From: Apostichopus japonicus
Taxonomy: Eukaryota; Echinodermata; Holothuroidea; Aspidochirotida; Stichopodidae
Direction of reading: 5' to 3'
DNA: 64,000 nucleotides
Assembly: GCF_037975245.1 (NCBI RefSeq)
Contig: NC_092578.1
Coordinates: 1,116,001 to 1,180,000, forward strand
Part shown: piece by piece, positions 7,867 to 63,847 of the stretch
Layout of the letters: each line of letters starts with the position of its first letter
How positions within the stretch are numbered: the stretch's first letter is position 1
Notes under the pieces: model-generated
Told to the model about the DNA's origin: nothing
Seen by the model: only the letters and a program-made list of their open reading frames with translations
Database searches by the model: none
Position numbers and translations under genes: made by a program

Positions 7867-9957
7867 ACAAACACTCTTGTTAGGATTATTAATCACATGC
7901 TTCAAACTCCTGATGTAATTTCCAACCCTCGAAAATCAGAGAGAGAGAGCCACACAGTCATCAATAAATCAATTAAAACCAGCAAACCAAACCCTGCCAT
8001 CTGCTTGATTTTCTTAAACTCAGAGCCCAAAAGTTTCTACAATTTTGCACAGCAGGAAATATCGTACTTTCAAATTAGGTTCGAGTATGGATAAAATGTC
8101 ACTGTTTTTAAACTGAAGGAGGGGATCAAACGTGATATTGAACACCAACGGTGCCTCACAGAGTAATCAGTTCGAATATTGAACTGGACTGCACTTATGG
8201 CGCAACGGTCATTTCCATGTAAATAATATTCTCACAGCGTTTTAACTGGTTAGGTAGGACTACAGATATATATGAAAGCTGGATGATACAAAAGAATATT
8301 ACCTCGAACATCCAAATTGGATATTCATGAATATTCATGGTTATCCACTGGATATTCATGAAATTATCACCTACAAGTACAATATCCAGGCCTAACATTT
8401 TATAATTTTAGCCACAATCTAGAAGAAAATGCAACTGCTTAAAAAATCTACTGGCTCAACATGAGAGCCTAACTATTGCAACATACTCTTCTATACAGAC
8501 AATCTAGCAAAATTTCACCATGTTTACTTAATAGCATACACCATATATTCAATACTGGCCATATGACTACAGCCCATCTTTTTCAACACAACAATGTATG
8601 CAAACTGCTTTTAGGATTTTTGGTTAGTATTCTAGCTTTCAATTACCAAAATTGCCTAATTTTCATCTCTAGTAGCACTAAAATCTATCCTGTGCATTGG
8701 TCATTATTATTACAACTTTGTCCATAAAAATGGCTAGAAATGATACTGAGTGTAAAGTGCCTACAGTACATTTTAGCAACTTAAAATTGATCCCCAAATT
8801 TCTTTTTATTCCTTTTTTTTTTGCATTACCTCAAACTTGCAAGTGCTGCATAACAGTGCAAAATTGATGATAGCGCACAAAAACCCTGACACTTATTCTC
8901 CCAAGAAAAAATTCTTGCCTTTAAGCAATTTCCTTTACAGAATATAAGACTGACCCTTGCTTCTTCAGATCCTTCGACAATCAGTAAGATGTACATCAAA
9001 CGTGACTAGGACTGATTTGTATAATTGCGCATAAAATCAAAGCTATGTTTGATGGTTGAGAGCTTTTCCTATGGTAAACCTAATCTCCAGCGAGATTTGT
9101 TAGCAGAGCATTGAGGTAGTTAGGCGTAGTAACCATGGATATTACAGAGGATACTGTTACCTGTAGAACGAAACTGATCTTAGGGGTTGTCACAAGTTCA
9201 AGAGTTTTGGGTTTACTTCAACTAACCAAATCTTTAATCAAGAGAATCTCATGTTAGCTATCGGTCAGAGATCCTTGACCACAATTACTGATCCTCAAAT
9301 CCACAAATGAAGAGGGTGTAAGAAACGTCAGCAACAGTGGTGTTCCGTCGAGGTTGACAGGACCGTCCGGACGCGACGTTTTCAGACATTTGTATGCAAA
9401 CCAATGTGCAGATGAATTTTAACGATAGTCAATGAACAGTGAATGAGTTCTTAAAATTGAGCAATACTAAGCTCACAGTTTTATTAATTTTACATGGTCA
9501 TATTTAGTCCATACATTAGCATATTTGTTGTCACCTGTTGAAACCCAAGAGAGTTACAGGAAGAAATGTGAACTTTTACATACAAACATTAACACGTTAT
9601 CATAAAAAATGAAATACTTTATGCAACTTGGTATTACACTAAAGTATCAAAGTTTGTTCAACCACCAATCCCTGTTATCCACACTGATTGCATGATGATA
9701 TCATTACAGCATTACTAAATTTTAATGATTGGAGCCAAAGTGGTACAAACCAGTTTTCCACATTTCTTGGGCAATATTTCTGTCAATACAAAGACTGTTT
9801 TAATTTTGTCAGTGTAGTGTATGATGATCTTTCATATTTGGTTTGTTGAGTTTGAAGTTAGATGAACGCCTAGAACTGCTTCAACATAACAGCACACAAC
9901 CACAAAGTACAATCTGGAAACATTCTTACAAATTTCAAACCTTCCTGCCTCACTTAC
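7867..9957. other. Putative PTPRN-like intron or flank
   Basis: No supported exon. The sequence after the last donor (9957 downward) should be intron if the gene continues left. Low-complexity and AT-rich. Confidence 0.45.
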
Positions 9958-10260
9958 CTTCTGGATTATTGCCTTTTGCCAACTCCAGTTCCTCAACTTT
10001 CCCAAAGCCCCCTCCGAGTCCACCATTGACATTGTTTGGATCAAATTGTGGCACCAGCGAGCCATCCTGTCCGTCTCCTTCATCCACGACTGCCTCTTCA
10101 TTCACAACTGCCTCTCCATCCTGTACCGTCGCCAGAACTTCTTCCAACATCTGTATTTTTTCCTCCTCGGTGAGTTTTTGCCACTCCTCCCTGTCTGCCT
10201 CATTCAGGAACGGGACGAGTTGTTCCCCGAGAAGGGCAAGAAAAGTTACTTCACTATCAC
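9958..10260 (-). CDS. PTPRN-like exon 5: acidic pro-region, last exon seen
   Basis: 303 nt, phase 1 in and 1 out; acceptor TTTCAAG|GTG, donor CCAGAAG|GTAAGTG. It encodes a predicted helix (VTFLALLGEQLVPFLNEADR; LTEEEKIQMLEEVLATV) followed by acidic and Gly-rich sequence ending ELAKGNNPEG. The open frame upstream of 10260 is intron read-through. The next exon was not found at lower coordinates. Confidence 0.75.
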
Positions 10261-13200
10261 CTTGAAATAAATACATTAAAGACAGGGGTTGTTTACAATG
10301 ACATAGAAACAGAGTTAGACAACAGCACAGAAAGTTAAAAAGATCCCTTATTAGTAGCCTATTGAGAGAAGCATACATATACATGTACACAATGTACAAT
10401 GCATACATGTATGGAGGGAAGTGCAGTCTGTGTTGTCACGTAAATAAGTGTAAAACCAGCTTGAAACCTGTTGAAAACCAAGACGGAGACAAACACCAAA
10501 CCCCATTTTCCAATTTTCAGGAGGAAAGAACCACTTGCAAATTTAGGTGACATTGCTCATCACATATGCCGATATTTCTGAACAGGTTTGAAAACTCTGA
10601 TTCTGTGTGGGAAGTGAACTTCAAACCTAACTCATGAGAAACAACAAGCTAGATGTAACACTGTCTTCCCATCCCGCAAGGTTTGCATGACCTTTGACCC
10701 TATTAAGAAGTGGTTAGGCACTCTGTCAAAAAGAGGATGCTGAAAGGGCTGCAGCATACTGCAGCTAAGCTGCATAGGATGTAATCTTTTGCTTTGAGCA
10801 GTTCACACAATAAATACAGCTGGTCTCTTGAGATATTCTCTATAGTTTGATACATGAATCAGCCTTTACTGCAGTGCATTTTTTTTTTCTTCTTTGATAT
10901 GGTACCTATTAAACCAACTTATTGCTTTTTTTCAACATTTCTCACATGAACTTATTTTCTACACATAAACGAAATAAAGCCACATTTAATCCCTTTCTGA
11001 GTGTGCTGCACAGTAGATCTATAATAATGGAATTATGTTTTGACAAGACAGGTAAGTAACTTATATCCCCTATTGATAATGTCCCTAGATTCCTGAATGA
11101 ACAAAAGACTACTACTCACTTGTTGAACTCGATTCTAGAAAGCCATCTTCATCAACAGGAGCTGAAGAGGAGCTACTGCTGGCACCATCTTCTATCCATG
11201 CTGCTAAATTATTTCTGATCGTATCACCATCCTCTCGGTCAGCATCACCAGCATCCACATCACCATCCTCTCCTGGTGTCTGGATCTCACCTTCTTCGTC
11301 CTTTACCTTCCCCCAGGGTTTACCTGCCCTCACCCAAGCCCCATCAACAAAGTTTCCATCCTCTCCAAACTTCTCTGTGTAGACCTTTCGTAGATAATCT
11401 TGAATGAGATTCATCTTGTCCCCCAGTTCGTCTGTTTGTGTGTCGTCCTGGTAGCCCTCATCTCCCATTGTCAGTGGTACCCTCTGATCCCTGTATTGGT
11501 TATACCTATCCAAAAGCTTTGAATAACGTGCATAGTAATCCTGAAATCGTTGCTGTAGTGAGTTTTGGCGCGACTCCTCCAGTTCCTCCAACAACGCCAT
11601 GTATTCTTCGACAATATCCGAGACGGATGCTCTGTAGTTGTTGCTTTGGTAGCGGTCATTGGCGGCATACTTTTTGGACCTTACAGGAGGGGGTGCTCCG
11701 TTGCCCTTCCATAGTAACTGCAGAGATGCTCTGGCCAACTCTCCCTGAGATTGTACTGGGGACAGATCATTATATCCTCCGCTAAGGAAGGGATATTCTT
11801 GACTTGGATAGTCTAACTGGTAGGTAAATAGTACCTTTCTAAGAATGTCCTGGAAAAAAATAGATAGATAAACATAAATTATGTACAATGTCATCAATGA
11901 TATCATCAACACATTTATTTCAATGCCATACAATTGATTGGTCTAACGTTTCAATGACAATTTTCAAAAGTAACTATCAATTTAAAGAAAGACTTGTCAA
12001 AGGATATCATCCATATTTGTGTGTGTGTTTATTTATTTATGTTAATGTGTCTATCAATAATGTCCCAGTACTGTACATATTCCAGTAGGTTAAGTTTAAC
12101 AAATTTGTGAAGTTGTGGGGGTGAATAACCTCTTTTAGTAACCGTGGAAACATATCCACATATATTTTGGGTCTAGTAGACATACAGTAGAACATGAAGT
12201 ATGTATGTCTTTGTTACCTCTTACTTAGAACTGTACAAGATCGAAAATCCTTTATTAGGACACACTTTTCTATGAAGGCAGTTTAGATTTAAGTTAAAAT
12301 AAAACAAAACTGTAAGCAAACTGCTTATCCACTATTAAGAGCCTGTGTAAGAGAATGTGTAAATGCAAGTTGGCCTGACGTTTCGATCCTAGCAGGATCT
12401 TCTTCAGAGGCTGAAAGATAGATTTACTGTAAGTCACATAAATGAAATTTCAGTATGTGCAAGCATGTTTTATTTAAATCAAAAATTATTATTTCACTAA
12501 GAATTTGGTGAGTAATAAAATCAACCCCCAAAAATTCAGGCCTCATAATAGCTACTAGATCTCATGTTAGATTTTTGTGTTTTGTTCTTTTCTGGCTTCA
12601 CCTTCATACATGCACGTATATTAAGGTGACCCGACGTCCCCGATTTTCGCTGATAGTCCCCGATTACAGACTCCAGTGTGCTGTCCCTGATGAACAAGTG
12701 TCCCCGATTCATCAAACTGTTCAGGAATTTCGAAAATATCCCACATTATTAGTAAAATAATTGTAAAACAATATTTAGTCAAGTGTGCAGTCGCAGAACG
12801 GAACTAACCAGTATTTCGGGTGGGCCAGTGTAAAGTGGAAACACTGTTAAAATATGCTAGGTCAATCTAGCCTAGCACTCTTACGTAATTTCAGTAAATT
12901 TCATCTAAGAAAAAGCTACACATTTGAAAATAAAATTGATTTAAAAAGTGCTTCTAAGTATCACCATTTTTCATCTAAGCACCTTAGGCACTTAAAAATC
13001 TTCCCTTAGACCCCTCCCCCATATCAGTCACACAATAAATGTCCCTGCTTCCAGTCAGGCAAATATGGTCACCATAATGTATATGAATATAGTAGTCAAG
13101 CACTGTCAACACTACAGTACAGCAGGCCACTGATTAATTGAGTATCTATATACTATCCACAGACCCCACACAGTTAATGCTATGAAATCCATTAATGGCC

Positions 13201-32180: not shown

Positions 32181-33717
32181 TCTCCGCCTATATGAATGCA
32201 TATATAGTTATGATTATCATCGAAACCCAAAAACGAGGGGGTGGTGCTCTGGGTGCTGTGAAACGAGTCGATATGGGAGGGAGGGTCTGGGAACATTCTA
32301 CCTCAGAAAAATTAAACATAAGGTTCAAAAGGGGTGTATACATCCCATCCCCTGGATCTGCGCCTTTTTTCATGACTCGCCTGTCGATGTGCATGAATGG
32401 AAGTATAAGTGGAGCCAAAAGGTCGGGGAATGGAGTTAATTTTAACCTCCTCTTCCGGGCTTTAAAGAGCCGCGTAAGAAATATGTTTATTTTTGAGTGA
32501 GTAAAGAGGATTATCTAGAAGTGGCAAAACGTTTGGTAAAAGTCTACATGCTCATGGCACTGAAAATGGATGATACCAAGGATAGCCACACGATCATTTG
32601 TCCTGTCAATGATAGCTTTTACACAATGAAAACTTCTACAAGGCATAAGGGACCATGACATTAATTTGAGTATGTAAGTCAATTGAAGTTTTACAATGAG
32701 TAAACGATACCTGAAAAGACCGTGTATGGTGCCCGCATTTATACCTTATCCGTAGCGAACGGATACTAGAATCGTACCACAGATAATACCGTTAAATATT
32801 CATTGACTTACACACAGACTTAATTCGTCACTTTCCAAAGTCGCTAGAGCCTGATAGATAACCTACACCTCAATTGATGTGTCCTATACCCACCAGTATA
32901 TTTCAGAGAAGTTGGTTATCGTGCTAACAAATTAACAGACTCCCATATCCGTTTAGATTTTAAGAAAGGAGCCGGTTTCGTATTAATCCCCAGGCCCATC
33001 TGCCAGCTCTCGCTGCGGAATCTTCCTGTCTCACCACGAATTTCAAATTCGAATTTCAAATGTATGAAAACACCTTCAGTTCTTCTGATTTTGTTTTAAC
33101 ATCAATAGTTTATTTCATCATCCGAGCATAAAACTAATGATGATAACTGCAAACATGCCAAAACGAACGTCAATTCCGTATACATGTACATTTGAAGTTT
33201 TGAGGGGTTTTTCTCGACTCACAATTGTTAACCTTTCAGACGGATGTTCCCTATATTCTAACTGTGATATGGTACCTTGCATGGATTGTATAGGCTGTTA
33301 TGTGGCGCATAGAGTCGCGTGAAACTCCTGCAGCACAAGCACAGATGAGAGTAGCGGGTCGGGTATGAGGGAGGGAGGAAGAAGGAGCGGTAACTTATTA
33401 GGAGGCAAATACAGTATTTTACATGGCCGTTGGAAACATTCAAAGTAAGTGAAACCGTGAAGCAATAATTAAATGGTGGATGGGATTTTGGTTGGAAATT
33501 GTCACTTTTCACACCCAAACATCAATTGATAAAGTAAAAAGGATTAATAAGGGTAAAATATTAGTTGAGTCGGACCGGTATAAATACTGTAAGAGTGTCA
33601 AGGACGGATCCAGTATTTTGTCAAGCATGGGTGTGGCAATAGTGTTGTTGAAGCCGACATCCAGATTTAAGAGAGACGGGATCTGGGTTCCGTGGAGTAA
33701 AATATCGTGCTCATCAG
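32181..33717. other. Intergenic stretch with short chance frames
   Basis: Overlapping short frames at 32.1-32.5 and 33.1-33.8 kb show no domain, no splice logic and low-complexity content. Nothing supported. Confidence 0.45.
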
Positions 33718-33867
33718 TGGCGTAGGAAGGTACTTTTGAGTGGGGGGCTGAAGACTGATGGCCGGCCTGGGGGAGGGGTCTAATTCCTTTGGATTTTTTT
33801 TGCATTTCCAGGTGGCCTCAGATGCAATTTGGTGCAATATAGCACACTTCAACTCCCACTTCATTTT
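33718..33867 (-). repeat. Right half of a TIR-like element split by the LINE
   Basis: Matches, in reverse, the right half of the intact copy at 37547-37925: the shared blocks include GGCCGGCCATCAGTCTT-type sequence, GCATTTCCAGGTGGCCTC and the end TACGCCACTG. It breaks off at CATTTTG, exactly where the LINE begins. Confidence 0.72.
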
Positions 33868-35309
33868 GATAAGTTAAGATAAGATTCACTTTATTTAACC
33901 CATTTCGGGTAATTAAATGCTCGATGTACAGAATAAGATGGATATAACATTAAAATACAGCACATGGAAAATGACTCACATAAAACAATAAGACAATAAA
34001 ATTACAAAGTCCAACAATGGCAAGACTAAGTATGACAAAAACAGTGAAGGTGTAACCAGAGGGCAAGAACACTAGCGATTGTAATTTTGATTATGGATTC
34101 TGATGCACTGTGGGACGAATGAGGAGAGGTGACGATTGGTTTTGGCTGTCGGCAGCCTCATCCTCCCGCTACGAGGAATCACTGCATTCTGAAATTGTCC
34201 ATGCAGTGGGTGGTCGGCATCCTTTAAAATCTTGTCTAATTTCTGTTGGAGTAGATGGGTATAACATGATGAGTAAGAGGGTTGGCTGTTGCCAATTATG
34301 CGGCCCGCCTGACGGATTAAAGAGTCTATACGGTTCTGATCTTCCTTTCTCGCATTCCCGCCCCAAGAACACGGGGTAGTAATCCATCTGGGCCAGCTGC
34401 TTTTGATACGTTTAGTTTAGAAAATTCAACACGCACTTCATGTGCAGTAACAGTTAAAAACTGCTCAGGATACGACTGCATAGATAACATTTCCCGTAAC
34501 TCACCAATCCCATGTGAAAAATCTAGGTGATCAAACCGATTGTAAAAAACATTAAGCTCATTTGCATATTCACGGGAAGTGTTTGGGAGTTTATCAGTCG
34601 ATCTATTGTCTTTCATGTAGCAACTCATCAGTCGTATACCCGCCCAAACCTCTTTCATATTATTTCCAGTAAAGTGACTGTCTATTTTACACTTGTATAA
34701 GTCCTTTCCTTTCTTTATTGCCCTGTCAAGTTCTTTTTGCACAGCCCTCAGCTCATCTCGGTTGTTTTGCCCGAAAATCTTCTTCTTTTTGTTGATGATC
34801 TTTTTAACCTCCTTGGTAATCCAGGGCTTGTTGTTGGCATACACCTTGATCTGTTTATCCGACACCGTACAGTCAACACAGAAATTAACGTAATCCGTAA
34901 TTGTTTGGGTGAGCTCGTCGATGTCCTCTGAAGCGTCAATGAATACGTCCCAATCAGTGAGGTCCAGCGAAGCTTGTAGATCCTCGATGGCCGCGGGGCT
35001 CCATTGTTTGACGGTAAGTAGCTTTGGTTTCTGTCTCTGAACAATAGGTCGGTACGCTGGTTGCAACAGGATCATGTCATGATCAGATCTTCCCAATTTG
35101 GTAATCGGTTTAGCTGTGTAAGCCCCCTTCACGTTTGAATAACAGAGGTCCAGGATTGCGGCATCTCGTGTTGGGCATTGTACGTGTTGATAATAGTTAG
35201 TATTGTTCCTCTTCAAACTACAATGATTGAAGTCGCCATCAATTACCATGAAGGCATTGGGATGTGCTATCTCAAGGTCTTGTATGATAGCACATAGCTC
35301 GTTTGTAAA
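33868..35309 (-). mobile_element. LINE relic (APE endonuclease C-terminal part, RT core deleted)
   Basis: The minus-strand frame carries GDFNHCS, PTRDAAILDLCYSN and GRSDHDMIL, the late motifs of an apurinic-type endonuclease. A charged linker (KPWITKEVKKIINKKKKIFG) and the RT entry motif SKAAGPDG follow. The catalytic palm is missing. Just after about 34,370 another frame gives a LINE ORF2 C-terminus (HPLHGQF, RMRLPTAKT, SFVPQCIR) ending at 34072, so roughly the whole RT core is deleted. The 3' tail near 33,870-33,900 is a degenerate ATCTTAACTTATC type. It is 5'-truncated and inserted inside another repeat. It is defective. Confidence 0.8.
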
Positions 35310-35450
35310 GAATTTTGCATTTTCACCTGGCCTTAAATGCAATTTGGTGCTCCAAATGAGATTTTTTTTCTCATTTGGAAATGAAAAAGGGGTTTTCTGA
35401 CTTGCGGAGCGGGGGGCGGAATGATACTTCCGCCCCCCCATATTTTTCAC
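34326..35450 (-). pseudogene. Chimeric open frame: TIR-like element read into LINE endonuclease
   Basis: The 374-codon frame starts in the flanking repeat (MKNMGGRKYHSAP...; 35,450-35,310) and enters LINE endonuclease sequence at about residue 47 (FTNELCAIIQDLE). It stops shortly after the RT deletion. The ATG belongs to the host repeat, so this is not a native gene start. Confidence 0.7.
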
Positions 35451-35495
35451 TGGGGGGCTGGCGCCCCCCAGCCCCCCGGTTCCTACGCACCTTGG
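35310..35495 (-). repeat. Left half of a TIR-like element split by the LINE
   Basis: Continues the same element after the LINE: GCATTTTCACCTGGCC, CTCATTTGGAAATGAAAAAG, CTGACTTGCGGAGC and the terminal G/C-rich hairpin with GGGGGGCTGGCGCCCCCCAG. Together the two halves equal the intact copy. Confidence 0.72.
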
Positions 35496-36700
35496 TGCTC
35501 ATAACTTGAATAGTGGAATTTATGTTATGCATGATTGGAAGTCTTTTTACCTCGTGAAAAGAGGAACAATGTTGATCACCCGTAGTGGAATATTTTGACT
35601 ACTTTTATTTAAGGTCTTGTTCTTTCTTAAGAAAAAATACAATGGTTTCATTGTTATTGTAGTTCTTGCCAATTCTTAGACCCATTGACATAAACAGTAA
35701 TGTCTTAATCAAATTCCATGACTTGAACGGTCAGTATTTTTAAACCCCATTCCCATTCCGGGGAATAATTGTACAACAATAAAGAAGGATGAAACATTAA
35801 AATTGAAGCATATCGGTGAGTCCGATGATTTCATATTTAGATTTGCTCCAGTCTTCAGCATTGTGTGTTAAAAATTTATATTAAAATTATATATATTAAA
35901 ATTGCCACATCTCTCAAACCGGAATGAATGGTAGCACTATATGGGCAGAAAAAGACGGTATGGAAAATCAATCCGCAAGCATTTCCCCAAATATGACATG
36001 TGTATATATTTAACACTGGTACATGCATCAATACTATTTTATGTTTCAATCTTTGATTTTCTCTTTTAGAACATGTAACATAAACAAAATGTTTGTAAAT
36101 GGTTGGGTAGGGGGTGGGTGGTGGGGGTGTTAAGTTCGATGAAGCAAGCTTTATTTTGGTAAAAGAAGTTGTGGAGTCAAAATCATCACTATTTCATATC
36201 CAGGTATTGCACAAACCAGTACAAAACTATATGCTAATAATCATCATCTTTATGGGCCCGAAGTTTAAAGTCATGCATCATTTGTACCGGAACTCTTCAG
36301 TCCATCCATAAAACTAAATATATTCATTCTACTTGGCTAAATACAATACCTTTGGTGTTATTAATCAAGCAGGAATAACTGCATACCATGGACTCTCTGC
36401 CGATGGATATATAACTAATTCCCCTCTTCTGTTTTCCCTTTTTGTTTTCTTTTTTCTCTCTTTTAATTTACTTTAGCACCTTTTCGTTAGCTACAGTCAC
36501 TGCGTTTGCCCTTGATTAAATCATCGTTGATTTACACCTTACTGCCCGAAATAGTCCCAAAAACGAAGTCGTTTACAAATGCTATATAACCATACCGTCC
36601 ATACGCCTTTTAGTTTTGTTCGTTCTATATTCAAATGTTAAAACTGATTGGGTTTTTTCCCAATGAGAGAATAGATCCATTTTTAGCAGCTGAGTCAGTC
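35496..36700. other. Intergenic region upstream of the death-domain gene
   Basis: AT-rich with no recognisable exon. The last 200 bp before 36904 carry the CRE palindrome and probably the promoter and 5' UTR. Confidence 0.45.
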
Positions 36701-36903: not shown

Positions 36904-37234
36904 ATGGATAGGGTTGGTTACAAATTCTCTGATATAAAAGTCAAAGAATTGCCTTTGTTTTATCACCTAACGGTGGATCTTTCAACTTTACTGGATCAAG
37001 ATGATGCTCTTGGAAACGACTTTCAACGTTTTCTAAGCTTGATGGGATTTTGTATGCCCGAGATCGGTTTTCTGGAAAGCCGATATAAAAGACCTACAGT
37101 GGAAGCACTGAAAAGTTGGCCAGGGTCTACGGTAGAGTTAGTGCGAACTCTTCGAAAGTGCGAACGGGAAGATGCAGTTTTTTGTGTTAGACGCTGGCTC
37201 GGATACTTGGCTTTGCTATCCCGCTATGAAAGAA
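36904..37234 (+). CDS. Exon 1 of death-domain gene (death domain)
   Basis: Encodes residues 1-110; donor TATGAAAGAA|GTAAGTTT is near consensus. The frame stays open into the intron and stops at 37336-37338, so intron retention would yield a 144-aa death-domain-only product. The ATG at 36904 is the first in this frame. Confidence 0.75.
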
Positions 37235-40200
37235 GTAAGTTTCTCTACTTTACTGTATCACATGATAACTCAGAAATGTTCGATAACTATGTGAAAGTTT
37301 CTTGTTTTGTAATATGTTGGTCTGGACTATACGTTTAAGAAGAAAACCAGAATTGAAAGTAATAGGAAACTAACTAACAAGAAAATGTTGAATTATCATC
37401 ATTATTTCATGGATGTGAGATGAAGGCCCGGGCCCCCTACTGCGTGCACGACTTTTCGAGTTTCATGTGTTAATTTCCGCGGTGCCATGTTGTATGTATA
37501 CTGTACTTTTGATAAGCCTTGTCAAGTATATACATATAGGCTAGTTCAAGGGCGTTGGAACCGGGGGGCTGGGGGCGCCAGCCCCCCCGGTGAAAACTAT
37601 GGAGGGGCGGAAGTATCATTTCCCCCCCCCCCCCGCAAGTCAGAAAACCCCTTTTTCATTTCCAAATGAGAAAAAAAAATATCATTTGGAGACCAAATTG
37701 CATCTAAGGCCAGGTGAAAATGCAAAATTATATACAAAATGGAGTGGGTGGGTTGCAAATTATGAAGTGTGCTATATTGCACCAAATTGCATCTGAGGCC
37801 ACCTGGAAATGCAAAAAAAAATCCAAAGGGGAGGGGGACACCCCCTCCTCTTAGACCCCTCCCCCAGGCCGGCCATCAGTCTTTAGCCCCCCCCCCCACT
37901 CAAAAGTACCTTTCTACGCCACTGGACTAGTTTAATCTCTCAGGTCACGGCTACTATAATTCATGGGAAATTGTTTTTTCTTTCACGAGGGGGGGGGGGG
38001 GGTTGGTTCTACAAGAATGCCTCGACTGACAAGACATTTGAAACATGGTGAAATCAGTGATTTGATTTCTTCGATGTTTGCCAGTCATACTTACTTATTA
38101 AACTCAAGATTATTTAGCCCCTTTGTATAGAAGGGAAGGGATTTCCTGACTTAATCGACACTCTGCCCCACTTCTTGTCTAACTTGGCAGGTGACTGGAA
38201 AAAGTCGGATCCAATTTTAATCTTCTATATTTTAGTCTCTAACATAGTACCCTATATCCATCCCCCCCCCCCCCACCGACCATTCACCCTCCGGTACACC
38301 AAACGCACCCATTCGTTCAGTTCCGGCGTGCATTGAAACCTTTTACTTCTTTTTTTTTGTGTGTCACATGGGGTATATACCAAGGAGAAAGGGGTGGGGC
38401 TTATAACTTCCTAGATGTAGAGCCATCTCAACTTCTTTATCAACCAATAAAAAATGTTGCTTTATAGGCTTTTAATTTCGTGTCATTCAGATTTCAGACC
38501 ATTATCTACAATTTCACAGGCAATTGGGTCAACTTGGACCTATAAGTTTTAATATACCAATTTTCAATTCCTTAGTAGCATATTATTTCATACATTTCCA
38601 ATCCCCCAAACGTTGTGTCTTGCTTTTCATGTACGTATTGTGTTTTTGGTTCGTTTATGTGAAATGTCATCGTTATATATGTGATTATAAATCAATTGCA
38701 ATACAAACAAAATTATTATACAATACATATTAATGCAAAAAATCCGACAGAAAGGAAAAGGGAGCACGCATATATTAATTCCACATCGAGCTTCACCATA
38801 CACAGATAGAATTCATTCAGTATGCATGGGACACTTGGAAATTCCGCTCTTGTTACACGAGGTTGTTCATAAGTTGTTGTTGTTCTAGGCTTTCCCGGAT
38901 GTAGCTTCTCATCCTGGTTCTATACGTTATTTGCTCTACACGGCACGTGGTATACAGGCGGATATCTATGACTTACCGGTATAGGTCATTATAATATGAA
39001 CGATATCTCATATAGCTCAATTTCCTTTCTGCGGGATGTGCTCTTATCGAATATAACACCACACCTAATCCACCCCACCACTATACCTCAAGCCAAGATA
39101 CAGATCCCATATCTCTACGCCATCTTGCATCGTAAAGTTTTTACCCTAATCATTTATTTTATTCTTTGCCAACAGTGCGTACTTTTGGTTCAGATATACC
39201 TTCCGAATTCAGGGAGACAAGGGAACCATCAAGAATCCTCACACCGCCGTCCCAACCATCTTCGTTCATTAGCGGCAACATTCGAGATTACACTGAGACT
39301 GATTTACCGAGCATTGAACAACTCCTAAACGAGCAGTACTTCCCAAGCAATAAGAGGCGAAGAACAGCATCCTTTCTTGTTATAGACGACCATGGTTAGT
39401 ATAGCCCTAGCTTCTACCCCACCCCTTCCCCTCCCCACGACGGGGCCCGCATTTCATATCCCACCTGATGTCTGCGTATAACGTTAAAATAATTACCGGT
39501 AATAATTATGTAGGATAAGGCCATACGTAGGATAAGGTCATTCAAGTAAGGCAAAAATACTGCTATATGCTGCTCTATTTGTAGGTGGGAGTAGGAATAG
39601 GCTATGCAGAACTGAAGCACATAAGTCATGTAAACAATTCGTTAAGTTCGTACATGATTGCATCATATGCTCATAGAATGAGTTGATTGTATTGTACTAA
39701 GTGCATATGTTTGCAGGTATATATAGGCTAAGTGTATATATATGTACACATATACGCACGTTATCGCTGTGCTTTTCTATTTGTTTATGTGTAAATCATC
39801 AACACAACAAGTTTATAAAGGCTGTTACAAGAAGTACTTGTTTGGTCACTATATACATATCACTGACCGTTGCAGCTTATCAGGAAGCCCTAAAATGGTT
39901 ACCAGTTTAACAAAGATTAGACATAAACACTGTATAAAATTGATTATCTACGTTGAACTTATTCTGCGCGACTTCATGAAAGTGTGAATATGTGAGTCCG
40001 CATAGGCACATATCTCGCATTCTGTGCAAAGTATAGCCCTCGTGATTCAGATCCTCAATGTGTGGGCGTATATGTGTATATTTGCAGAATATCACTCATT
40101 TTGGGAAGGAAGACTTTCTTTCGAAGTGGAAAGTTTGGATTATAATAGATAAATGCAGGCCTATGTCAGATTTAATGCAATCCTATGAGGAGCGCTGTAA

Positions 40201-43200
40201 GTTTATCTGTATAACTTGCCCTTCAGCCGAGTCGGAGAAATTTACATGGGAAAGTTCCGTTTATTCATAACACAAGTATATGAAACTGAACAATATGGGA
40301 ACTATTAAAATTGTGTGCACTTATTCCTGGAAAAAGGTGTCTACTGGTTCAAACTACGCATGCACAAAGTATGATCGTTGAAGAGGTTAACCTCGATATA
40401 TACCTCCCCTGACTTGCTAGGGAAATGACCGCGGTATAAGTCAATCTAAATTCATTAGTTATCCATGTCGATATCGCCGACTGACAGCGACGTAGCCAGG
40501 AATTTGAAAGGGGGGGAGCACTTTTTGCGATTGATATGGATTTTCAAAGTTGTAGGCACGACTATCTGAGCGGAGCGCCACCATCTGTTGGCGCGGAGCA
40601 TACAAGAAAACTTTTGGTTTTACAAACCCCCCAGATGACCGGAAACGGCCCTTCCCTAGTGTTCATTCTGGTTCCCTGGCCTCTTGCTAACTTGAGACAC
40701 CTCATTCAATATCACTTTTAAACCCAAAAAACAAACGAGTTAAAATAGTACGTAATTCAATTATACATAATGTATTAAAATTAGCAAGTTACACAAGGGC
40801 GGCGGAAGCACTTTTAATCTGGGGGGGGGGGGGGGGCACCGACGTCAAAGGGCACTTTGCAGAAATTCGATTGGACTGATGCAGCCTGATATTTAGTACC
40901 CTTTATAAATCTTATTGTATTATCTTATTTGCGTATACACATCACTCCATCAACGCCCCCCCCCCCCCGTCTTAGTAGTCTTACTTTTCAACTTCTGATA
41001 CTTGTAGATACAAAGATAGGCCAGAAATGTCTTTGATACAACCATAGCCAGTATTTGTCTTTGATACAACGTAGCTAGTAAATGTTTATCGAAAAGGCTG
41101 TTTTGGAACTTGGAACGCCGATCGTGACAACAACAGGCAACAAAGTGCTGCAGCTCTATACATATAAAGTCTGTTAATCAACGATAGGCTTATTTGACTG
41201 TGGAATGTTCTCAACTGAAATTTTATCTGCGTAAACGGGTTCTTAAGTAGATGTTAAAAAACTGACAAGATCGTATCCTAGTCTTTTTCGGCGGGTAGAG
41301 TATTGAATGAAACGGCACGCGATATGAATGACAGCCTATAGATGACAGAAGAATAGGTCACCTAATTTAGCCATAATCTTGCTACGTTCATTTCAATAGT
41401 TTTTCCTGTCTAGACTCTTAGACTCGTCCAGCAAGCTTATGGATTTGAATTATGGGTGTCTTAATAAAAAAGATAACTTGGCCAAAAAAAGTGTAGGCCC
41501 GGGCCTACACTTTGGTGTTTTAATAAAAAAGATAACTTGGCCAAAAAAGTGTAGGCCCGGGCCTACAGTGCTACATACTGGCTACGCCCCTGATAGTTCT
41601 AAATTAGGATTAGATCTCTTACTGAAATATCACTGACCTAATAAGGTGATCAAGAGTACAAGTTTTATGTAGAAAAAGGGCACATTTTTAACCTGAGGAA
41701 AAGTGGGGGGCAATTGCCCCCTGTGCCCCCCGGTTCCGCCGCCCTTGAAGGTACATGTACAGAGTAGTCTTACTTTTCAACTTCTGATACTTGTAGATAC
41801 AAAGATTGTCCAGAAATGTCTTTGATACAACTGTAGCTAGTAAATGTTTAAGTTAGCCTAATAAGAGAAGGCGAGAGCTATCCGACGATTGCCATTTGAT
41901 GCAAATTTCTCAAGTGTTTTCTCAACTGAAATATTATCTGCGTAAACGGGTTCTTAACTACATGTTAAAAAACTGACAAGATCAGATCCTATAGTCTTTT
42001 TTCGGCGGGTAGAGTGTTGAATGAAACTATCGTGCTACATACTGGCTACGCCCTGATCATATGATATCAGTATCAGCAGATTTTGTTTCCTGTTTAAATT
42101 CTTTTACATGTTCTTTTACATAATATATCAGAAAGACAAACATAGTGCTCTTTTACAAGTTTTCCAGTAGGATGATTCTTGTTTATTGTCCAATGTCTGG
42201 ACTTTAATACATTTGACGAACTTAACTGATGGACAATATAAACTTTCATATTTTGTAATACAGCCAGATATGCAGTGGCCTAAAAACAAATATCGTTATC
42301 GCAGTGTATTAGCAGTGTAATAATTATTTATAGGAAGTGCGTATCACGTACGATTGCTAGCTTAGCTTCATAACATGCTGTTCGTGCAACAACTTAGGAC
42401 GACTCATTGAACGAACGTTGTCGACGTTGTTGTGCATACAGTTCGTGACATTCCATAGAGTGCGGTTAGGTAGGCAATATGTATTTTATAACGCAGTGGC
42501 CAACTGTAGAGCTTGTAATTGGCTATAAGCTAATTTAGCTAATTGCATCTGCCAAACTAAGTAAGTAGTTGAATCAGTAGGCGTGAATGTTACTACGATT
42601 ACAATCGAGTTAACGGAGCTGACGAGTATTCAAGATCAAAAGAGCACTGACAAAATACCATGCTAAAAAAACGACAGTTTAAAAAAAAAAAAATCGACAC
42701 TGAAAGGGGGGGAGCGGTCGCTCCCCCTGCTCCCCCCTGGCTACTTCCCTGCCGACTGATATATGTCCGACAAATCTCTCACCGAAATGAGAAAGTTGAC
42801 AGCTAATCATCGATGATAGCTATCGACGGCACGGACACAGCTAGGCCGCAGAAGGGGTTCAACCGGGGAGGGTGGGGGAGATTTCGAGGGTATGGTGGGT
42901 CATGACTTTGACTTTCAAAAAGTCCCGACAGAAGAACTTTTTTATGGTTTTCCACTCATGAGCACGGTTTAGCAATATATGACATGACGTCGGTTTGCAA
43001 TGGTTTAGCAATATGACATGACCTCGGTTTGCAACTGTTTGCTTTCATTGTGTACATTAACTTCATTGTACTCCTCAAATACTTAGTAAGTAATTAGAAA
43101 GAATTGCATGTGAAAAATTGTGATCAATTTATGGCAGAAAAAATTCCTTCTTTTTCAATTGTTTCTTTTTCCTTCAAATGACTGCATTATATACTGGCCA

Positions 43201-44200
43201 TATGCGGTATGCTCATTAATCTTCTTTGCTGTAAGGATATATTTTGGTTCAATTTCATTCATGTCATTCATGTCAAATTAGTCGATTGATTAGCAAATTC
43301 ATCGATAAATCGACCATTTCGATTGTACTTGACGTCATTTTCCGTCTTCATTTTTTCTTTTCAGATACGTCACCAATTCGAAAGTCGAGCGAATATCTCT
43401 GTAGAAAATTTACTTCTCTCGTGAAAAACTGTTTTCTTATTCCGAAGGACGCTACTTGGATGACCAATTCGACGGCTTACATCAATAATTTCGCCAGGGT
43501 ATTTTGTTTCACAATGATTGTTGTGAATTTGATAGACAGCATATTTTCTCCCCGCCATTATCCAGATTATTGGATGGAATTGGTCATCTCAATCCTACCA
43601 GTCATGGAATCGATTTACGTCGATAAACATATTGAACCATACAAAGAGATCATAAGAAAGGTTATAATATGCCAAGAAAGGATGACCACTCTACAGAGTG
43701 CTCTAACGAAGAAATTACTTCACAGAAAGGACGGTACATGTTCAGATTGCTGCTTTCAGAAAGAAGTTGACATTTCGAGAAAACCAAGTTTAAATTATGG
43801 ATCGTGTGAGTGTGTAGATATATACAATGAACTGCAACAGGAAAAGAAGAACTACCATTCTTATTTTCGACAGGCAATTCCAAAATACTCCGATTTGAAA
43901 CTTTGTGTTTTCTGTACGCTTGTTGCTGAAGCGACCATCATAATGTTGTTGCTTTTAGATTTTGTGTTCTGTAGCACATTCGCCTCATTGCACGAGAGAT
44001 TACGTAACGGATTTACAAGCATAGCTTATGGACTTTTATTTTTGGACTGTTTCTACAACGGTGTAGTCATTTTGTGTTACTATCACGATTCCACACCACA
44101 GACGGTAATAAGAAAAGATCGATTTCGGCAAAGGATTGACGTCGAATTAGAGGAATCGCATCTTCGCCATAGAGCCAGAACTCATCCATCTGAGGAATGA
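36904..44200 (+). CDS. MyD88-like death domain fused to a four-helix membrane region (461 aa, 3 exons)
   Basis: Exons 36904-37234, 39176-39394 and 43365-44200 join with phase 1 at both introns (1386 nt, 461 codons plus TGA). Residues about 10-105 look like a death domain closest in my memory to MyD88: V-K-E-L-P-L start, FLSLMGFCMPEIGFLESRYK, then PTVEALKSWPGSTVELVRTL and KCEREDAVF. Residues 111-183 form a polar linker with a basic NKRRRTAS patch. Residues 184-461 have no TIR domain but about four hydrophobic segments: 226-245, 252-269 (weaker), 361-387 and 400-424. The hydrophilic loop between segments 2 and 3 carries CSDCC and CEC clusters. An even number of spans would place the death domain, loop and charged tail on the same, cytosolic side (inference). 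It may be a membrane-anchored innate-immunity or death adaptor; the function is unknown. Confidence 0.72.
37547..37925 (+). repeat. Intact copy of the G/C-ended TIR-like element
   Basis: About 380 bp starting GGGCGTTGGAACCGGGGGGC with a GGGGGCGCCAGCCCCC hairpin and ending CTTTCTACGCCACTGG. The interior has two inverted related blocks (CATCTAAGGCCAGGTGAAAATGC and CATCTGAGGCCACCTGGAAATGC). No coding capacity. It resembles non-autonomous DNA elements common in marine invertebrates. Confidence 0.6.
39176..39394 (+). CDS. Exon 2 of death-domain gene (linker)
   Basis: Acceptor TTTGCCAACAG|TG and donor GACCATG|GTTAGT. Encodes MRTFGSDIPSEFRETREPSR onward, a Ser/Pro/Arg-rich linker, then SIEQLLNEQYFPSNKRRRTA. 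The basic patch NKRRRTAS could be a kinase site or sorting signal; that is inference. Confidence 0.7.
40795..41746. mobile_element. Nested TIR element, AAGGGCGGCGGAA ends
   Basis: Left AAGGGCGGCGGAAGCAC and right GGTTCCGCCGCCCTT form an inverted pair, both next to G/C homopolymer tracts. It lies wholly inside the larger element. Confidence 0.55.
40974..42057 (+). repeat. Segmental direct duplication (A-B-C / A'-B'-C')
   Basis: Three blocks recur in the same order. A, GTCTTACTTTTCAACTTCTG onward, is at 40978 and 41768. B, TCTCAACTGAAATTTTATCT to GGCGGGTAGAGT, is near 41209 and 41920. C, GTGCTACATACTGGCTACGC, is at 41568 and 42031. The second copy is shorter because DNA between B and C is missing. 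Confidence 0.75.
41457..41570 (+). repeat. Two-copy tandem repeat with palindromic GTAGGCCCGGGCCTAC
   Basis: Two copies of a roughly 62-bp unit, each holding the 16-bp palindrome GTAGGCCCGGGCCTAC and TAATAAAAAAGATAACTTGG. Confidence 0.75.
43365..44200 (+). CDS. Exon 3 of death-domain gene (membrane region and stop)
   Basis: Acceptor TTTTTTCTTTTCAG|AT. The split codon G|AT restores Asp and keeps the frame. Encodes residues 184-461 with hydrophobic segments such as FARVFCFTMIVVNLIDSIFS and LCVFCTLVAEATIIMLLLLD and a charged tail ending HPSEE. I recognise no known family in this exon. Confidence 0.72.
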
Positions 44201-44545
44201 CGTATCTGTCATACATATGCATGCTTAGGGGTCTATTATGAGTGCCGTAACATGTACGGTGTCACAATTTCCGCATATATCCCATAGCCTGTATTTTGAA
44301 TAAGTATATTTTTCCAGTTGGGATATATTTAGGTTTACGAGCGTTTACTGCACTGATCTAACCCAAGTGGGCTATCATTATACGCATTCATTTATTGTGC
44401 TGTTATATGCATTTCTCCGCCGGCTGCAGAGTTCTGTTCAATCCATGCTTGGTGGATGATAGTGGCTTTCACCTAATCTTTCGTGTTTCGCGCCAGCGAT
44501 ATCACCAAACGTTCGAAGTATGTTATAATCTTAGCAGTTGAGAGA

Positions 44546-44798
44546 CTAAAGCCCGGGTCACATCTGCGCGATTCAACACGCGATTCAACTCGCAATACAA
44601 TTGAAGGTTGAATCGCGTAGTTAGACACGGGTATCAACTTGTTGCGCAATCAAAGTTGCGCCGTCGATTTGGGTTGATTTGCAATAGAGCAATGTCCTAA
44701 TCAGCACAACTTCTCATAAGCAACTTTTCTGATGCGCGTGATTTTAGTTGCGAGTTGAATCGCGTGTTGAATCGCGCAGATGTGACCCGGCCTTTAGA
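44546..44798. mobile_element. MITE with about 50-bp near-perfect terminal inverted repeats
   Basis: The left end CTAAAGCCCGGGTCACATCT then GCGCGATTCAACACGCGATT is matched in reverse by the right end through TTTAG at 44798, over about 50 bp with one mismatch. It is 253 bp long and non-coding. It lies 0.35 kb past the death-domain gene stop. Confidence 0.75.
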
Positions 44799-45208
44799 CT
44801 ACACATGTACAGTAGTAGCATTTATCTTCCGTCGATAACATGAAGAAGACATGGTACCTACGCAGTTTTCTTCTTCAACATTTTGCAGGTGTGACGTCAC
44901 TGTAATCGAGACCCGAAAGATTGAGTGAAAGCTGGTTACAGAAGGGAAATTAATATTTGTTATTGCTGCATGTTATAGATGGAGAAAGAAGTAACAAATA
45001 CTGATATATAACGAACTTAAACTTGTATTGTCATTTTCAAGATAAAGCATTTTTATTTGAATCTGATCATCTTTTTGGACTTTTTATTCCAGGAGACTAT
45101 AAACGAAAAAACATAAATTTTCTCGTTTTATATGTAATCTAATTAATGAAGTCTCTTCCTACAATAATAAGCAGACTGGAAAACAATCGAAGCATCGCAA
45201 ACCGCGAG

Positions 45209-45576
45209 CAGGGCCGGATTTACCTGATGGTCCCTGGTCAGGGCCCCTATACCTTTGGGATCCGAAACTTAGAAGACAAAGAAACGTTATAAATGGGAGG
45301 TGACCTATTAGGAACATTTCTTCCGAATAGCTTTAATTAAATGATCTCTTTTCTTCTAGCCTCTCGATGTATAGGATAACAGGTTACATACCAATCAAAA
45401 GCAATTAACGAGACATTTGCAAATCATTTCAATTTACATACACAGTAAACACCCATTAACTGAGCATGTGGATTAAAACGTAACGGTGACCACTTCGGTC
45501 TGTGTTCCATGCGGTCAGTTGGGCCTCAACATATCTGTTTGGCCTAGGACTGCCCCAAAATGTAAATCCGGCCCTA
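45209..45576. mobile_element. hAT-like MITE, CAGGGCCGGATTTAC ends
   Basis: Left CAGGGCCGGATTTACC and right GTAAATCCGGCCCT form an inverted pair of about 14 bp. It is 368 bp long with no coding frame. The flanks show no clean 8-bp duplication, so insertion is old. Confidence 0.6.
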
Positions 45577-46154
45577 GCCGTAATACTACTCATATTTTCA
45601 AACAACAGAAGTAAAGATGGAGTGGACTCCTATTGACCGTATGATACAATGACCTGTGAGGTATGATATCTGGAACAAATATTACTGCAGGCTTGTTGCT
45701 AAGACGAACTTGCATATTTGCCAACCAGACAGGAATGCGAGGATCATATTGTTCCCTTATAAGCTAAGTACCCTACACGACCCTATGCCATTCTACAGCT
45801 TTCGTACCTATCCACAATATTACATCGAGAGGGAAGACATGGCTCCGACATAAAATGTGAAGGTTAAGGATCTCCAAGAGAAAATCTAGTTTTAAGTAAA
45901 GCTGAGAATGAGAACATGATCTTTCGACTGCACCCTGTAGCCGTAACCATCTATTAAACAGCTAGCTTGCTGCACTAGTGTATAGCAACATTAAACGGGA
46001 GGTATACAACTCAACCATCTACCTATACATCTGTTGTGTTGCAACATTGACCGAAACTGAAATACCACTTCACACATGGCATGTGCGTTTCCGGATAGTG
46101 TAGTTATACACTTTATATTCAACTTAAAAAGAGTTCTTTTCACTGCATCGAGAT

Positions 46155-46275
46155 CATATATATATATATATATATATATATTGAAATCGTAGTGGGTTGA
46201 GAAATCCAGAGCGGTGAGAAAACTTCCAGCCTCCACCGGGATTCGAACCCGGGCCTCCCGCTTTATATGCGAACA
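46155..46275 (-). repeat. tRNA-derived SINE fragment with (AT)n tail
   Basis: On the minus strand a Pol III B-box (GGTTCGAATCC) sits in GGGAGGCCCGGGTTCGAATC. It is followed by a body (GGTGGAGGCTGGAAGTTTTC, then CTCACCGCTC) and an (AT)n tail at 46155-46181. The A-box half is not recognisable, so it is a 5'-truncated SINE rather than a tRNA gene. Confidence 0.6.
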
Positions 46276-46671
46276 CCCTAATACATATAAATATAGATAG
46301 TTACTGCAATAACTGCAGAGTAATTCCAAACCCGGTCACACACACAATCACACGTATAGTTACAGTCTAAAGTTGACAATTGCTATAGGCATATATACTT
46401 TCGATGGTTTCTATAGTAATGAATACGATATTGAATGCAAGCAACCGATCCCTTCTGACACGATGGGACCGATTCCCCAAAAAATGTTCCAGCAACGGTC
46501 CTTTGTTAAGGTAAACATCACTCATTAAGATCTCAATAATTAACTTAAGAATGAAAGCTACATCTATTTCAAACCAAACCGCATGGGTGTTTGATTGTTA
46601 GAAGTTCATCGTCTCTCTACCCCCCCCCCCCACCTACCCCACTAATATCTCTCTTTCAACAAAGATGCCCA

Positions 46672-60900: not shown

Positions 60901-63847
60901 GATATAAGGTTCTCATCATCTCAACTCGCATGACTCACTTTGATCGTCCTAAAGATACTCCTGAACCCAAGAGTCTGCTCAGAATGCTGATCAACGGATC
61001 AAGAAATGTACTAAAATAAATGTCAAAATATTGGACTGAAATACTTGGACTCAGTACTGGCAAACTGAGACAAAGAAAAGAAGCCAAAATCTAGAACTAA
61101 CAAACATCGAAGAGGGAGAATGGAACACCTGCTTCAAAGTTCTCATAAAATTCATCTGCCAAAAGTGGTGTGATGTAAGAAGTGGAGGCCCTTAATGATC
61201 ACCGTAGGCTTCCTAACGTGCGTGTTTACCAAAATTAACAGATACACAAACCCAAACATCATTACTGGTGTGTGTGGTAGAGATAACTGTTGTGAACAAC
61301 TCCCCCATACAGCTGAGAAGATGTCACAGATTTAATACCTCTTCAAATGCAAAGCTGAAGACTTTTCTGAGGGTATTACAAATTTTACTCAGGCGAATGT
61401 TTGCTACCCCTATCGTCCGATGTCGGTTGCATATGTAGTTTATAATTGGGAACTGTTTCTGATATGCAGCTTCTTAGCTACTATAACAATTTTCAGATGG
61501 ACAAACTATGTGCATAGTTTTGTGTGTTGAATGCACAAAATGTTCAATTTTTGTGATCATTATCTGTTCAAACGTTAATAGCTCTAATAAAATGGTCAGT
61601 GTTTTCAGAAACACATTTCTGGACAATGTTTATCGCTACTCTGAAACAGTTGCAACTTATTAAAAGTCAGTGTCCCAGTATTTTTGGCTCACAGCTGCAG
61701 TTGTCTCACAGCTGTCTCCTATGCTGTTGGATAATATTGAACAAGTTTTAAATGCAAGTGTTTGATACAACATGTTCATATATCTTCTTTCTGTTTTTCC
61801 AGGGTTACAAATTGTCTACAATGGAGCCCACACACTGGATATAGTTATTCCTGCTGAAAGAGGGGCTAAAGTGTGTGGCCTGTGTGGCAGTATGCACTTG
61901 ACTGATACCGGTTTTGTAGATCCTCAAAGTAATGAAAGACTTTCATATGTTGAATTCTTCTATAAAATGGCTGTACCTGGACAATATCATCAGATAACAG
62001 GTAGTATGGAACTTTGTCAAGACACACAATCTGAACAGCTGGCAAAAGACCAATGCAGGTTTCTTTTAGAAGAACCATTTGCGAAGGCATCGTACGTTTT
62101 GGATCTGCCAGCACATTTTGGGGCTTGTTTGGTATCAGTATGTAACTGCTTAAATACTGGCTCTAAAGATTGCCAAGGCTGTGAGGTTGCCGAGCATGCA
62201 GCGTTTATCGCCAACAATCAAGGTGTTCCAGTCACAAGTTGGAGAACAACCGATTTCTGCCGTGAGTAAATATTTTTGTACTTAATAGACAAAAGGGGGT
62301 GTTGTGTCTGATTCTTTCACTGCATATGGCTATACACCTTGGATTTTGGAAGGGTAATTACTGTGGTTGAAGTGTCTGCAGTGAGCTATTTCTGTAAGTA
62401 GAGAAAGGAGATGGGTTGTTGTGGAGGGGGAGGGGTGCAGGGAGGGTAAAGAGAGGAGACTATGTAGGAGAGTGGATCAGGCCCCTGTTAGATAATGCTT
62501 ACATAATCTAACTGATGAATTATTTGATTGACCTATATACTGCACTACGATCTGCCCTGCCTATAGCAATAACACCCGAGACCCCTGTCTTTGGCCAAAA
62601 CAGGGGAGATTGAATATCTACCGGAGTTAGCCACACTGAATGCTCCTCTCTACAAGTTCCTGATTAAACACACAGTATACTATTTCAGTGGTCAAGCCAA
62701 ATTTGTCTTCACACAGGAAAGTAGTGCTGGCCATTGGAGTACTTGTGTTTAAATACAATCATACGATGGCTGGTCAATTAATTAGGTGTGCTCAAGGATT
62801 AATCCTAATGACAGTACTTGGGGTAGTTTATGCTATTTAGTAACAAATTATTAATGCTCGAGTGCACTTGAGGAGGACTGATTTCTATAGGCAGGCTTGA
62901 CTGTCATGTGGTGGTGGAATCAAATTCTTGGGCCAATGCAGACCAACATTAAATGGATACAAAATGTTAGAAAAGATGAGCCCCCTATCCTGTGACATGA
63001 ACATATTAGTATCTGCACATGACAAATAAATTATGTTTTTATAGTATGAACAGCTGTACTACCCGTCATTAATTTGTGGCAGAATGAAATATAGATTTTA
63101 ATTAGATGGCGCCTCTTTGTAAATATCACTTTTAATGTATCTCTTGTCCACAGCCTATCAGTGTCCACATACCATGGTATTTCAAGAATGTGCCTCTTGC
63201 CTACAGTCTTGCAGTTCTTTGGGTATTGAGACTGTGTGTCCTACCACCTGTGTTCCAGGTTGTGTTTGTCCCGAGGGTGAGTCAGATTCTGTTTGTATTG
63301 TTATGTAAATTAGTATTGTGTATTAAGTATTAGTGGTGAAGATAACTCAGATCTTGTCTCTTTCATCAGATTCTGTCAAAACAAATAAATGGAGTGACGC
63401 ATTCAGTTAGCAGGTGCACATAAAGAGTATGTTAAGAAAACGTAAAGAATATAAAACAGAGAAAATAATTAACAAATATAAGGATTTGATATAACCTAGG
63501 AATATGTCATCCTGAAAAGGTACTGAAAAAAGGCTTTTGCTTAGCACTCAACCATTAGGGAAGCCTCACATGGACACATACAGTATAAATCATTCTCTGC
63601 ACGGTCGATGTTAGGCTTCCCTTATTTGCAATAGTGACTGCCTTCTCAAGGGCTGTTGTATCCATTTGAAGGTTTCACATTTTGTTTCTGCTTGCAGAGT
63701 AAATTTACCACATCCTTAATTTACATTTCTTTTGAAAGGTCATGTGTTTGATGGCACTAACTGTGTCCAACCAACAATGTGTCCATGTACTTCTGGCATA
63801 GACAAATACCCTACTGGAGCAGCAATTGAACAAGATTGTAATGAATG
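51910..63847 (+). CDS. SCO-spondin/otogelin-like secreted protein, N-terminal part (10 exons)
   Basis: Ten exons join in frame over 1511 nt: 51910-51974, 55029-55205, 55669-55745, 57370-57471, 59072-59119, 60175-60379, 60593-60738, 61803-62261, 63154-63276 and 63739-63847 (donor phase 2, so it continues to the right). Domains in order: signal peptide (1-20); EMI-like module ending CCQGWKGENC (about 34-103); EGF-like CxxECQNGGSC...CLCPDG...C (about 109-135); VWD domain (about 162-335) with the CGLCG motif at 298-302; C8 domain ending WRTTDFC (about 340-426); TIL cysteine-rich module (about 428-480). This order fits large secreted gel or matrix proteins such as SCO-spondin, otogelin and VWF/mucins; EMI plus VWD favours SCO-spondin. 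The exact orthologue cannot be fixed from the N-terminus alone. Confidence 0.78.
51975..55028. other. SCO-spondin-like intron 1
   Basis: About 3 kb. It contains a GTGGGGTG-type tandem near 54,505-54,540 and a poly-C run near 54,745. The minus frame 54071-53655 has no domain or splice support. Confidence 0.5.
55029..55205 (+). CDS. SCO-spondin-like exon 2: EMI module, first part
   Basis: Acceptor TTATGTTAAAG|GGCG is weak in pyrimidines but is the only one that gives matching phase 2. Encodes (W)AYSIPEVDGVHICEEKI onward with Cys pairs; donor AACAG|GTATGCC. Confidence 0.68.
55669..55745 (+). CDS. SCO-spondin-like exon 3: EMI C-terminus
   Basis: Acceptor TGTATTCACAG; encodes SEIHPPPVHTVICCQGWKGE and NC. 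The CC-x-GW-x-G-x-x-C ending is the hallmark of EMI modules. Donor AAAC|GTTAGT, phase 1. Confidence 0.74.
55784..56119. mobile_element. MITE with CAGGGCGTCGGA ends and internal hairpin
   Basis: Left CAGGGCGTCGGAGCC and right AGCTTCCGACGCCCCTG are inverted. Near 55,990-56,022 an internal palindrome ACGCTACGCGCCA...TGGCGCGTAGCGT forms a strong hairpin. It lies in intron 3 of the SCO-spondin-like gene. Confidence 0.55.
57370..57471 (+). CDS. SCO-spondin-like exon 4: EGF-like module
   Basis: Acceptor TCTCGACAG, donor AACCAG|GTAAAA, phase 1 both sides. Encodes six cysteines in EGF spacing, including ECQNGGSCYEPDLCLCPDG. A single-module symmetric 1-1 exon is typical of shuffled EGF domains. Confidence 0.78.
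59072..59119 (+). CDS. SCO-spondin-like exon 5: short linker
   Basis: A 48-nt micro-exon (acceptor CTTGTCATACAG, donor CATTCC|GTAAGT; phase 1 both sides) encoding EPYDTAEQYGGYVPTF, a linker before the VWD domain. Confidence 0.65.
60175..60379 (+). CDS. SCO-spondin-like exon 6: start of VWD domain
   Basis: Acceptor TTTACATTTATTAG|AC was chosen because the upstream CAG at 60117-60119 gives a stop in phase 1. Encodes CSLLSGYLHRVEGDHFNFNG then SGSFYLASEC, the C-x-x-x-G...GDxHxxxFxG...F-Y-L-A-x-x-C start of VWD; the usual FDG is FNG here. Donor AGA|GTAGGT, phase 2. Confidence 0.74.
60593..60738 (+). CDS. SCO-spondin-like exon 7: VWD middle
   Basis: Acceptor TTTTTCCCTTCAG; encodes IGGAKIELSPGGIVLLDSKL, then TRFPFRTQEADVTITNRGGY, the beta-rich middle of VWD. 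Donor AATG|GTACCG, phase 1. Confidence 0.72.
61803..62261 (+). CDS. SCO-spondin-like exon 8: VWD end and C8 domain
   Basis: Acceptor TTTTTCCAG. Encodes GLQIVYNGAHTLDIVIPAER and the CGLCGS motif of VWD (usual CGLCGN). A C8 module follows, with LCQDT, QCRFLLEEPF, FGACLVSVCNC and the closing GVPVTSWRTTDFC. Donor TTCTGCC|GTGAGT, phase 1. Confidence 0.8.
63154..63276 (+). CDS. SCO-spondin-like exon 9: TIL module, first part
   Basis: Acceptor TTGTCCACAG; encodes (P)YQCPHTMVFQECASCLQSC, then CPTTCVPGCVCPE, the trypsin-inhibitor-like cysteine pattern that follows C8 in this family. Donor GAGG|GTGAGT, phase 1. Confidence 0.78.
63739..63847 (+). CDS. SCO-spondin-like exon 10: TIL end and VWC-like start
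   Basis: Acceptor TTTTGAAAG; encodes GHVFDGTNCVQPTMCPCTSG and then YPTGAAIEQDCNE, the usual CxCxxxGxxYxxGxxIxxDC transition. Donor AATG|GTAAAC, phase 2. The gene runs off the window. Confidence 0.75.

Follow-up and report, generated by a model that had tools for sequence, protein, structure and literature searches.

Death domains are usually joined to single-span receptors, kinases, NACHT modules or TIR modules. Death receptors (TNFR, p75NTR) cross the membrane once and combine an extracellular cysteine-rich domain with a C-terminal death domain. In the ZU5-death-domain class, which we take to comprise UNC5, UNC5CL and MACC1, UNC5 and the membrane-tethered UNC5CL are likewise single-span proteins. 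In amphioxus, hybrid death and immune proteins, among them a TNFR-caspase protein that is predicted to be transmembrane and has been confirmed from cDNA, provide a precedent for lineage-specific domain shuffling, which is therefore not new in itself (PMC2575513). The amphioxus TNFR-caspase protein has a caspase and an extracellular TNFR domain, both different from the arrangement considered here, and the hybrids described in the available part of that report include no multi-span death-domain protein. Titles and abstract openings in the wider literature similarly contain no recognised description of a death domain on a multi-span tail, which is not proof of absence. In the holothurian Apostichopus japonicus, a single gene of this kind, fusing a death domain to a membrane-spanning region and known from sequence alone, looks real.

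The window, that is, the whole 64-kb stretch of DNA analysed (C18:1116001-1180000, on contig C18 of the A. japonicus genome), carries the following parts of the predicted gene.

36904..37234, forward strand: exon 1, with the start methionine and the death domain; residues 1-110 and the first base of codon 111; open frame, GTAAGT donor
36976..37197, forward strand: death domain proper, residues 25-98 (Pfam PF00531, 36.1 bits, E 7.4e-9)
37235..39175, forward strand: intron 1, GT..AG, with repeat fragments inside
39176..39394, forward strand: exon 2, a hydrophilic linker made up of residues 111-183; a codon is split at each end (symmetric phase 1-1)
39395..43364, forward strand: intron 2, GT..AG, 3,970 bases, with internally repeated segments (86-96%)
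43365..44200, forward strand: exon 3, the membrane tail; residues 184-461 and the stop; acceptor score 16

The original prediction of three exons with matching phases agreed with the DNA in its coordinates, its GT/AG splice dinucleotides and its phases (1/1), as did the proposed linker between the death domain and the hydrophobic exon. Joined, the exons form an open frame of 461 codons that ends in TGA at 44198-44200. Exon 3 lies in a frame of 321 stop-free codons, compared with longest frames of 127 to 192 codons in all 60 Markov-simulated 64-kb sequences. Symmetric phase-1 internal exons 120-400 nt long, bounded by splice sites no weaker than the weaker observed ones, were sought on both strands; four were found on the forward strand (exon 2 itself, two inside exon 3, and 63154-63276) and none on the reverse strand. 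Acceptors that equal or exceed the weaker observed one in strength and have at least 150 open codons behind them in phase 1 also number four on the forward strand (43365; 43566 and 43602, both nested in exon 3; and 61803) and zero on the reverse strand; the frame at 61803 has C8-domain and von Willebrand D matches, so that acceptor places of this sort tend to be real exons in the window. The predicted splicing leaves exon 2, by virtue of its symmetric phase, skippable without a frameshift. A codon-usage measure trained on 1,919 codons gives the claimed frames +0.5 bits in exon 1, where a single frame was scored, +3.0 bits in exon 2 and -4.4 bits in exon 3; in each of the last two exons the claimed frame outscores the other two frames but does not rise above open non-coding stretches.

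The first exon alone aligns to profile positions 3-85 of 86 in PF00531, above the curated cut-off of 22.6 bits, and the match scores 32.5 bits in the whole 461-residue protein. It is the lowest-scoring of the 150 places listed in a genome-wide search for the family, and a phmmer search of PDB with exon 1 alone matched no death domain, returning just three chance matches (E 1.1-1.6). AlphaFold2 modelled exon 1 with the six helices expected for a death domain, at low confidence (mean pLDDT 45.8), and the whole protein with seven short helices across the same stretch instead of six (mean pLDDT 38.8). Both models were set aside because their confidence was unusable; the 238 Foldseek matches of the whole-protein model at E <= 10, none of them at E <= 0.001 (best 0.32), were treated as noise from a low-confidence model.

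The domain had been described as MyD88-like, a description of which the death-domain part is supported and the MyD88 part is not. The comparison covered 13 death domains, among which the FADD and human MyD88 sequences did not come from a database record. The top score, 93, belongs to a ZU5-death-domain gene found elsewhere in the genome; a tandem pair of death domains on contig C8 scores 67 (DD-a) and 49, and FADD and human MyD88 score 55 and 50. The score with p75NTR is 33, reached by 9 of 400 shuffles, and that with a DD-TIR gene of the same genome is 27, which 132 of 500 shuffles reached, so that this domain is no closer than shuffled sequence. The ZU5-death-domain gene (C8:1308013-1308270, with a ZU5 match upstream) is the sole other match to the exon 1 query in the genome (E 0.009); its death domain is identical to that of the window at 26 of 85 positions, with a pairwise BLASTP E of 4e-9. 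A two-sequence profile built from these two domains retrieved p75NTR (5e-5), FADD (0.0015) and then MyD88 (0.0027) from PDB. Judged by these alignments, MyD88 is not the nearest label for the domain, and the ZU5-death-domain protein is closer among the 13 compared. The resemblance to this class is confined to the death domain: the 461-residue protein has no ZU5 match up to E 10 (Pfam) and, unlike UNC5 and UNC5CL with their single span, has several predicted spans. It resembles the death receptors in being a predicted membrane protein with a death domain, but here the death domain is N-terminal.

No TIR follows the death domain, as the original prediction had stated: Pfam finds none in the protein, and none of the 13 PF01582 and 35 PF13676 places listed in the genome lies in the window, the nearest on its contig being ~0.85 Mb away. 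Unlike MyD88, the protein has a predicted membrane tail in place of the TIR, and Pfam detects no kinase or caspase effector domain on it either. The accessible part of a review (PMC6043800) reports a conserved AjMyD88 for A. japonicus, and the window gene is therefore probably not the MyD88 of this species. The canonical MyD88 was not located among the TIR places that were read, which form part of the 13 and 35: the place on C22 has TIRAP as its nearest PDB relative, two places on C10 look by eye like Ig-TIR receptors, and a cluster on C13 consists of DD-TIR genes with a TIR unlike, by eye, that of MyD88. Within this cluster (C13:25.58-25.68 Mb; L040, L041), each of four death-domain places has a same-strand TIR_2 place ~0.67 kb away, and three of the four pairs have a second TIR_2 further on, making up a small DD-TIR(-TIR) gene cluster. 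The C13 genes resemble the window gene in fusing a death domain to another module and differ from it in having a TIR and in the sequence of the death domain.

A known family was sought for the tail (residues 184-461), and neither Pfam nor PDB sequences gave any match up to E 10. It had been considered that exon 3 might belong to a repeat, and no convincing second place was found: in the genome the exon occurs at its own place only, besides two weak matches on C20 (E 0.011) and C2 (E 0.21), each with a stop inside and both taken as chance. Of the frames beside those two matches, one resembles a cyclic-nucleotide-binding domain by eye and the other a reverse transcriptase. There were no relatives in viral contigs or in bacterial and archaeal genomes, collections that hold no animal genomes and are thus silent on deuterostomes. 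The parts of the tail are as follows.

43484..43549, forward strand: predicted span 1, ~residues 224-245, KD 1.81
43565..43624, forward strand: predicted span 2 (weak), ~residues 251-270, KD 1.07, crude dG 4.4
43625..43897, forward strand: basic loop, residues 271-361 (91 residues), with 16 K/R and six cysteines, CxxCC...CxC at 309-333
43898..43966, forward strand: predicted span 3, ~residues 362-384, KD 2.56
44021..44083, forward strand: predicted span 4, ~residues 403-423, KD 1.82, crude dG 4.1

About four hydrophobic segments with a cysteine-rich loop had been anticipated. The loop is present, and three of the segments are clear, exceeding 1.6 in 19-residue KD means; the fourth (residues 252-270) is weak. 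Measured on a crude dG scale, residues 403-421 form as weak a segment as residues 252-270 do, and no segment falls below zero. Shuffling exon 3 produced three hydrophobic segments in 9 of 2,000 trials, a rare outcome and still a possible one. If four spans and a cytosolic N-terminus are assumed, 11 K/R near the span ends lie on the inner side and 3 on the outer side, and the outer loops measure 5 and 18 residues; by inspection, the loop at 271-361 contains no N-x-S/T. With four spans, this charge distribution favours a predicted topology in which both ends and the cysteine cluster are cytosolic, which fits the earlier proposal that an even number of spans would leave both ends in the cytosol. 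Placed there, the cysteines would be likelier to bind zinc or to be acylated than to form disulphides. With three spans, the C-terminus would be outside and the loop would be placed differently.

The simplest reading, and the one toward which we lean, is a single three-exon gene whose 461-residue product would serve as a death-domain adaptor tethered to a membrane. The part encoded by the hydrophobic C-terminal exon would cross the membrane four times, as two hairpins, leaving the two ends of the protein and the basic loop with its cysteines on the cytosolic side. The tail would hold and cluster the N-terminal death domain at the membrane, favouring death-domain assembly; the tethered domain could then bind partner death domains (of the ZU5-death-domain, FADD or Pelle/IRAK type), and this binding at the membrane would nucleate signalling. 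The sequence itself shows the death domain, the open joined frame, the hydrophobic segments and the single genomic copy, from which splicing, insertion, topology, partners and function are inferred. Fitting splice borders and phases, a death domain above the cut-off, the long open exon 3, the small number of comparable acceptors and the K/R bias argue for the adaptor, and the loop without N-x-S/T and the low-confidence six-helix model of exon 1 are consistent with it. The weak second span, the fourth span that is weak on the crude dG scale, the shuffling result and the seven helices of the whole-protein model weaken it, as do an in-frame methionine at residue 216 of exon 3 and the absence of AATAAA from the 2.3 kb downstream of that exon (44201-46500; the first ATTAAA is at 45336). 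If the adaptor reading is true, a natural fusion of a death domain with a multi-span region would be another way to place death-domain assemblies at the membrane, and echinoderm immunology would have a single-copy gene for testing it.

The same methionine, which lies ahead of the first predicted span, is central to the main rival, an unlikely one, in which the locus holds two adjacent genes: the product of exon 1, perhaps together with exon 2, would be a short, soluble protein carrying the death domain, and exon 3 would be a gene of its own, possibly without introns, for a membrane protein starting at residue 216. The start context of this methionine is weak by inspection, and a strong acceptor in matching phase precedes the exon 3 frame. 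The exon 1 frame continues for 34 codons beyond the donor before reaching a stop, so that a product with only the death domain is possible, and the length of intron 2 and its repeats are also compatible with a gene boundary; against such a boundary, exon 2 is a rare phase-compatible exon between exons 1 and 3. Were there two genes, the interest of the locus would drop to that of a divergent death-domain protein.

Two further proposals keep the single gene, and each seems improbable to us. In one, the protein is a membrane-bound decoy or inhibitor whose death domain sequesters partners and blocks signalling instead of seeding it; a protein without an effector domain (TIR, kinase, caspase) would suit this role, but adaptors consisting of a death domain only can activate too, and the sign of the effect is not given by the sequence. 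The other, which goes beyond the adaptor and which we would put forward with equal reserve, is a new polytopic death-domain class, in which a lineage-specific four-span module with a zinc-binding or acylated cysteine loop would assemble in the membrane and cluster a death domain of the ZU5/MyD88 branch, leading to signalling in innate immunity or cell death that involves neither a TIR nor a TNFR ectodomain. A multi-span receptor or channel that senses a ligand or lipid through its membrane part, with the death domain as output module, is very improbable: several hydrophobic segments and a cysteine-bearing loop would suit it, but the outer loops of the four-span model are short and there are zero sequence matches to channels or receptors in Pfam or PDB.

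Similar fusions were sought in the 10 kb downstream of each of 20 death-domain places from the list and in the stretch with the ZU5-death-domain gene on C8, 21 stretches in all, with 128 of the 150 listed places outside the survey. Of the 21 stretches, 5 contained a frame in sense orientation that ran for 120 codons or more and had at least two hydrophobic segments, and 3 contained an antisense frame of this kind. More than two hydrophobic segments occurred in two stretches only (L032 and L034). In L032 the frame encodes an EamA transporter, lies ~7 kb away from the death domain and is probably a separate gene; the L034 frame, itself unscanned, is near-identical to it. Thus, no comparable death-domain/multi-span fusion was found in the 21 stretches surveyed.

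Other features were observed in the window. The exon at 61766-62269 (forward strand), which matches the C8 domain above the cut-off and, in part and below threshold, the von Willebrand D domain, is probably part of a gene for a large secreted protein. Long acidic frames of 161 and 276 codons at 9950-10435 and 11112-11942 (reverse strand), with sub-threshold Pfam matches only, are possibly exons of a secreted acidic protein. A 390-codon frame at 34326-35498 (reverse strand) looks by eye like a retroelement remnant, its only match, to RNase_H, staying below threshold; a portion of the frame is found again, in inverted orientation, in intron 1, where repeats match 35302-35494 at 91% and 33715-33851 at 83%. 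Rfam and tRNA scans of the 64-kb window found nothing. Elsewhere in the genome, one 217-codon frame (L042, C8:42248400-42249150) contains two death domains, an arrangement reminiscent of the tandem death domains of MACC1. Finally, contig C12 holds approximately half of the 150 death-domain places in the genome-wide list, many of them at 19-34 Mb, a concentration that suggests large local expansions of another death-domain class.
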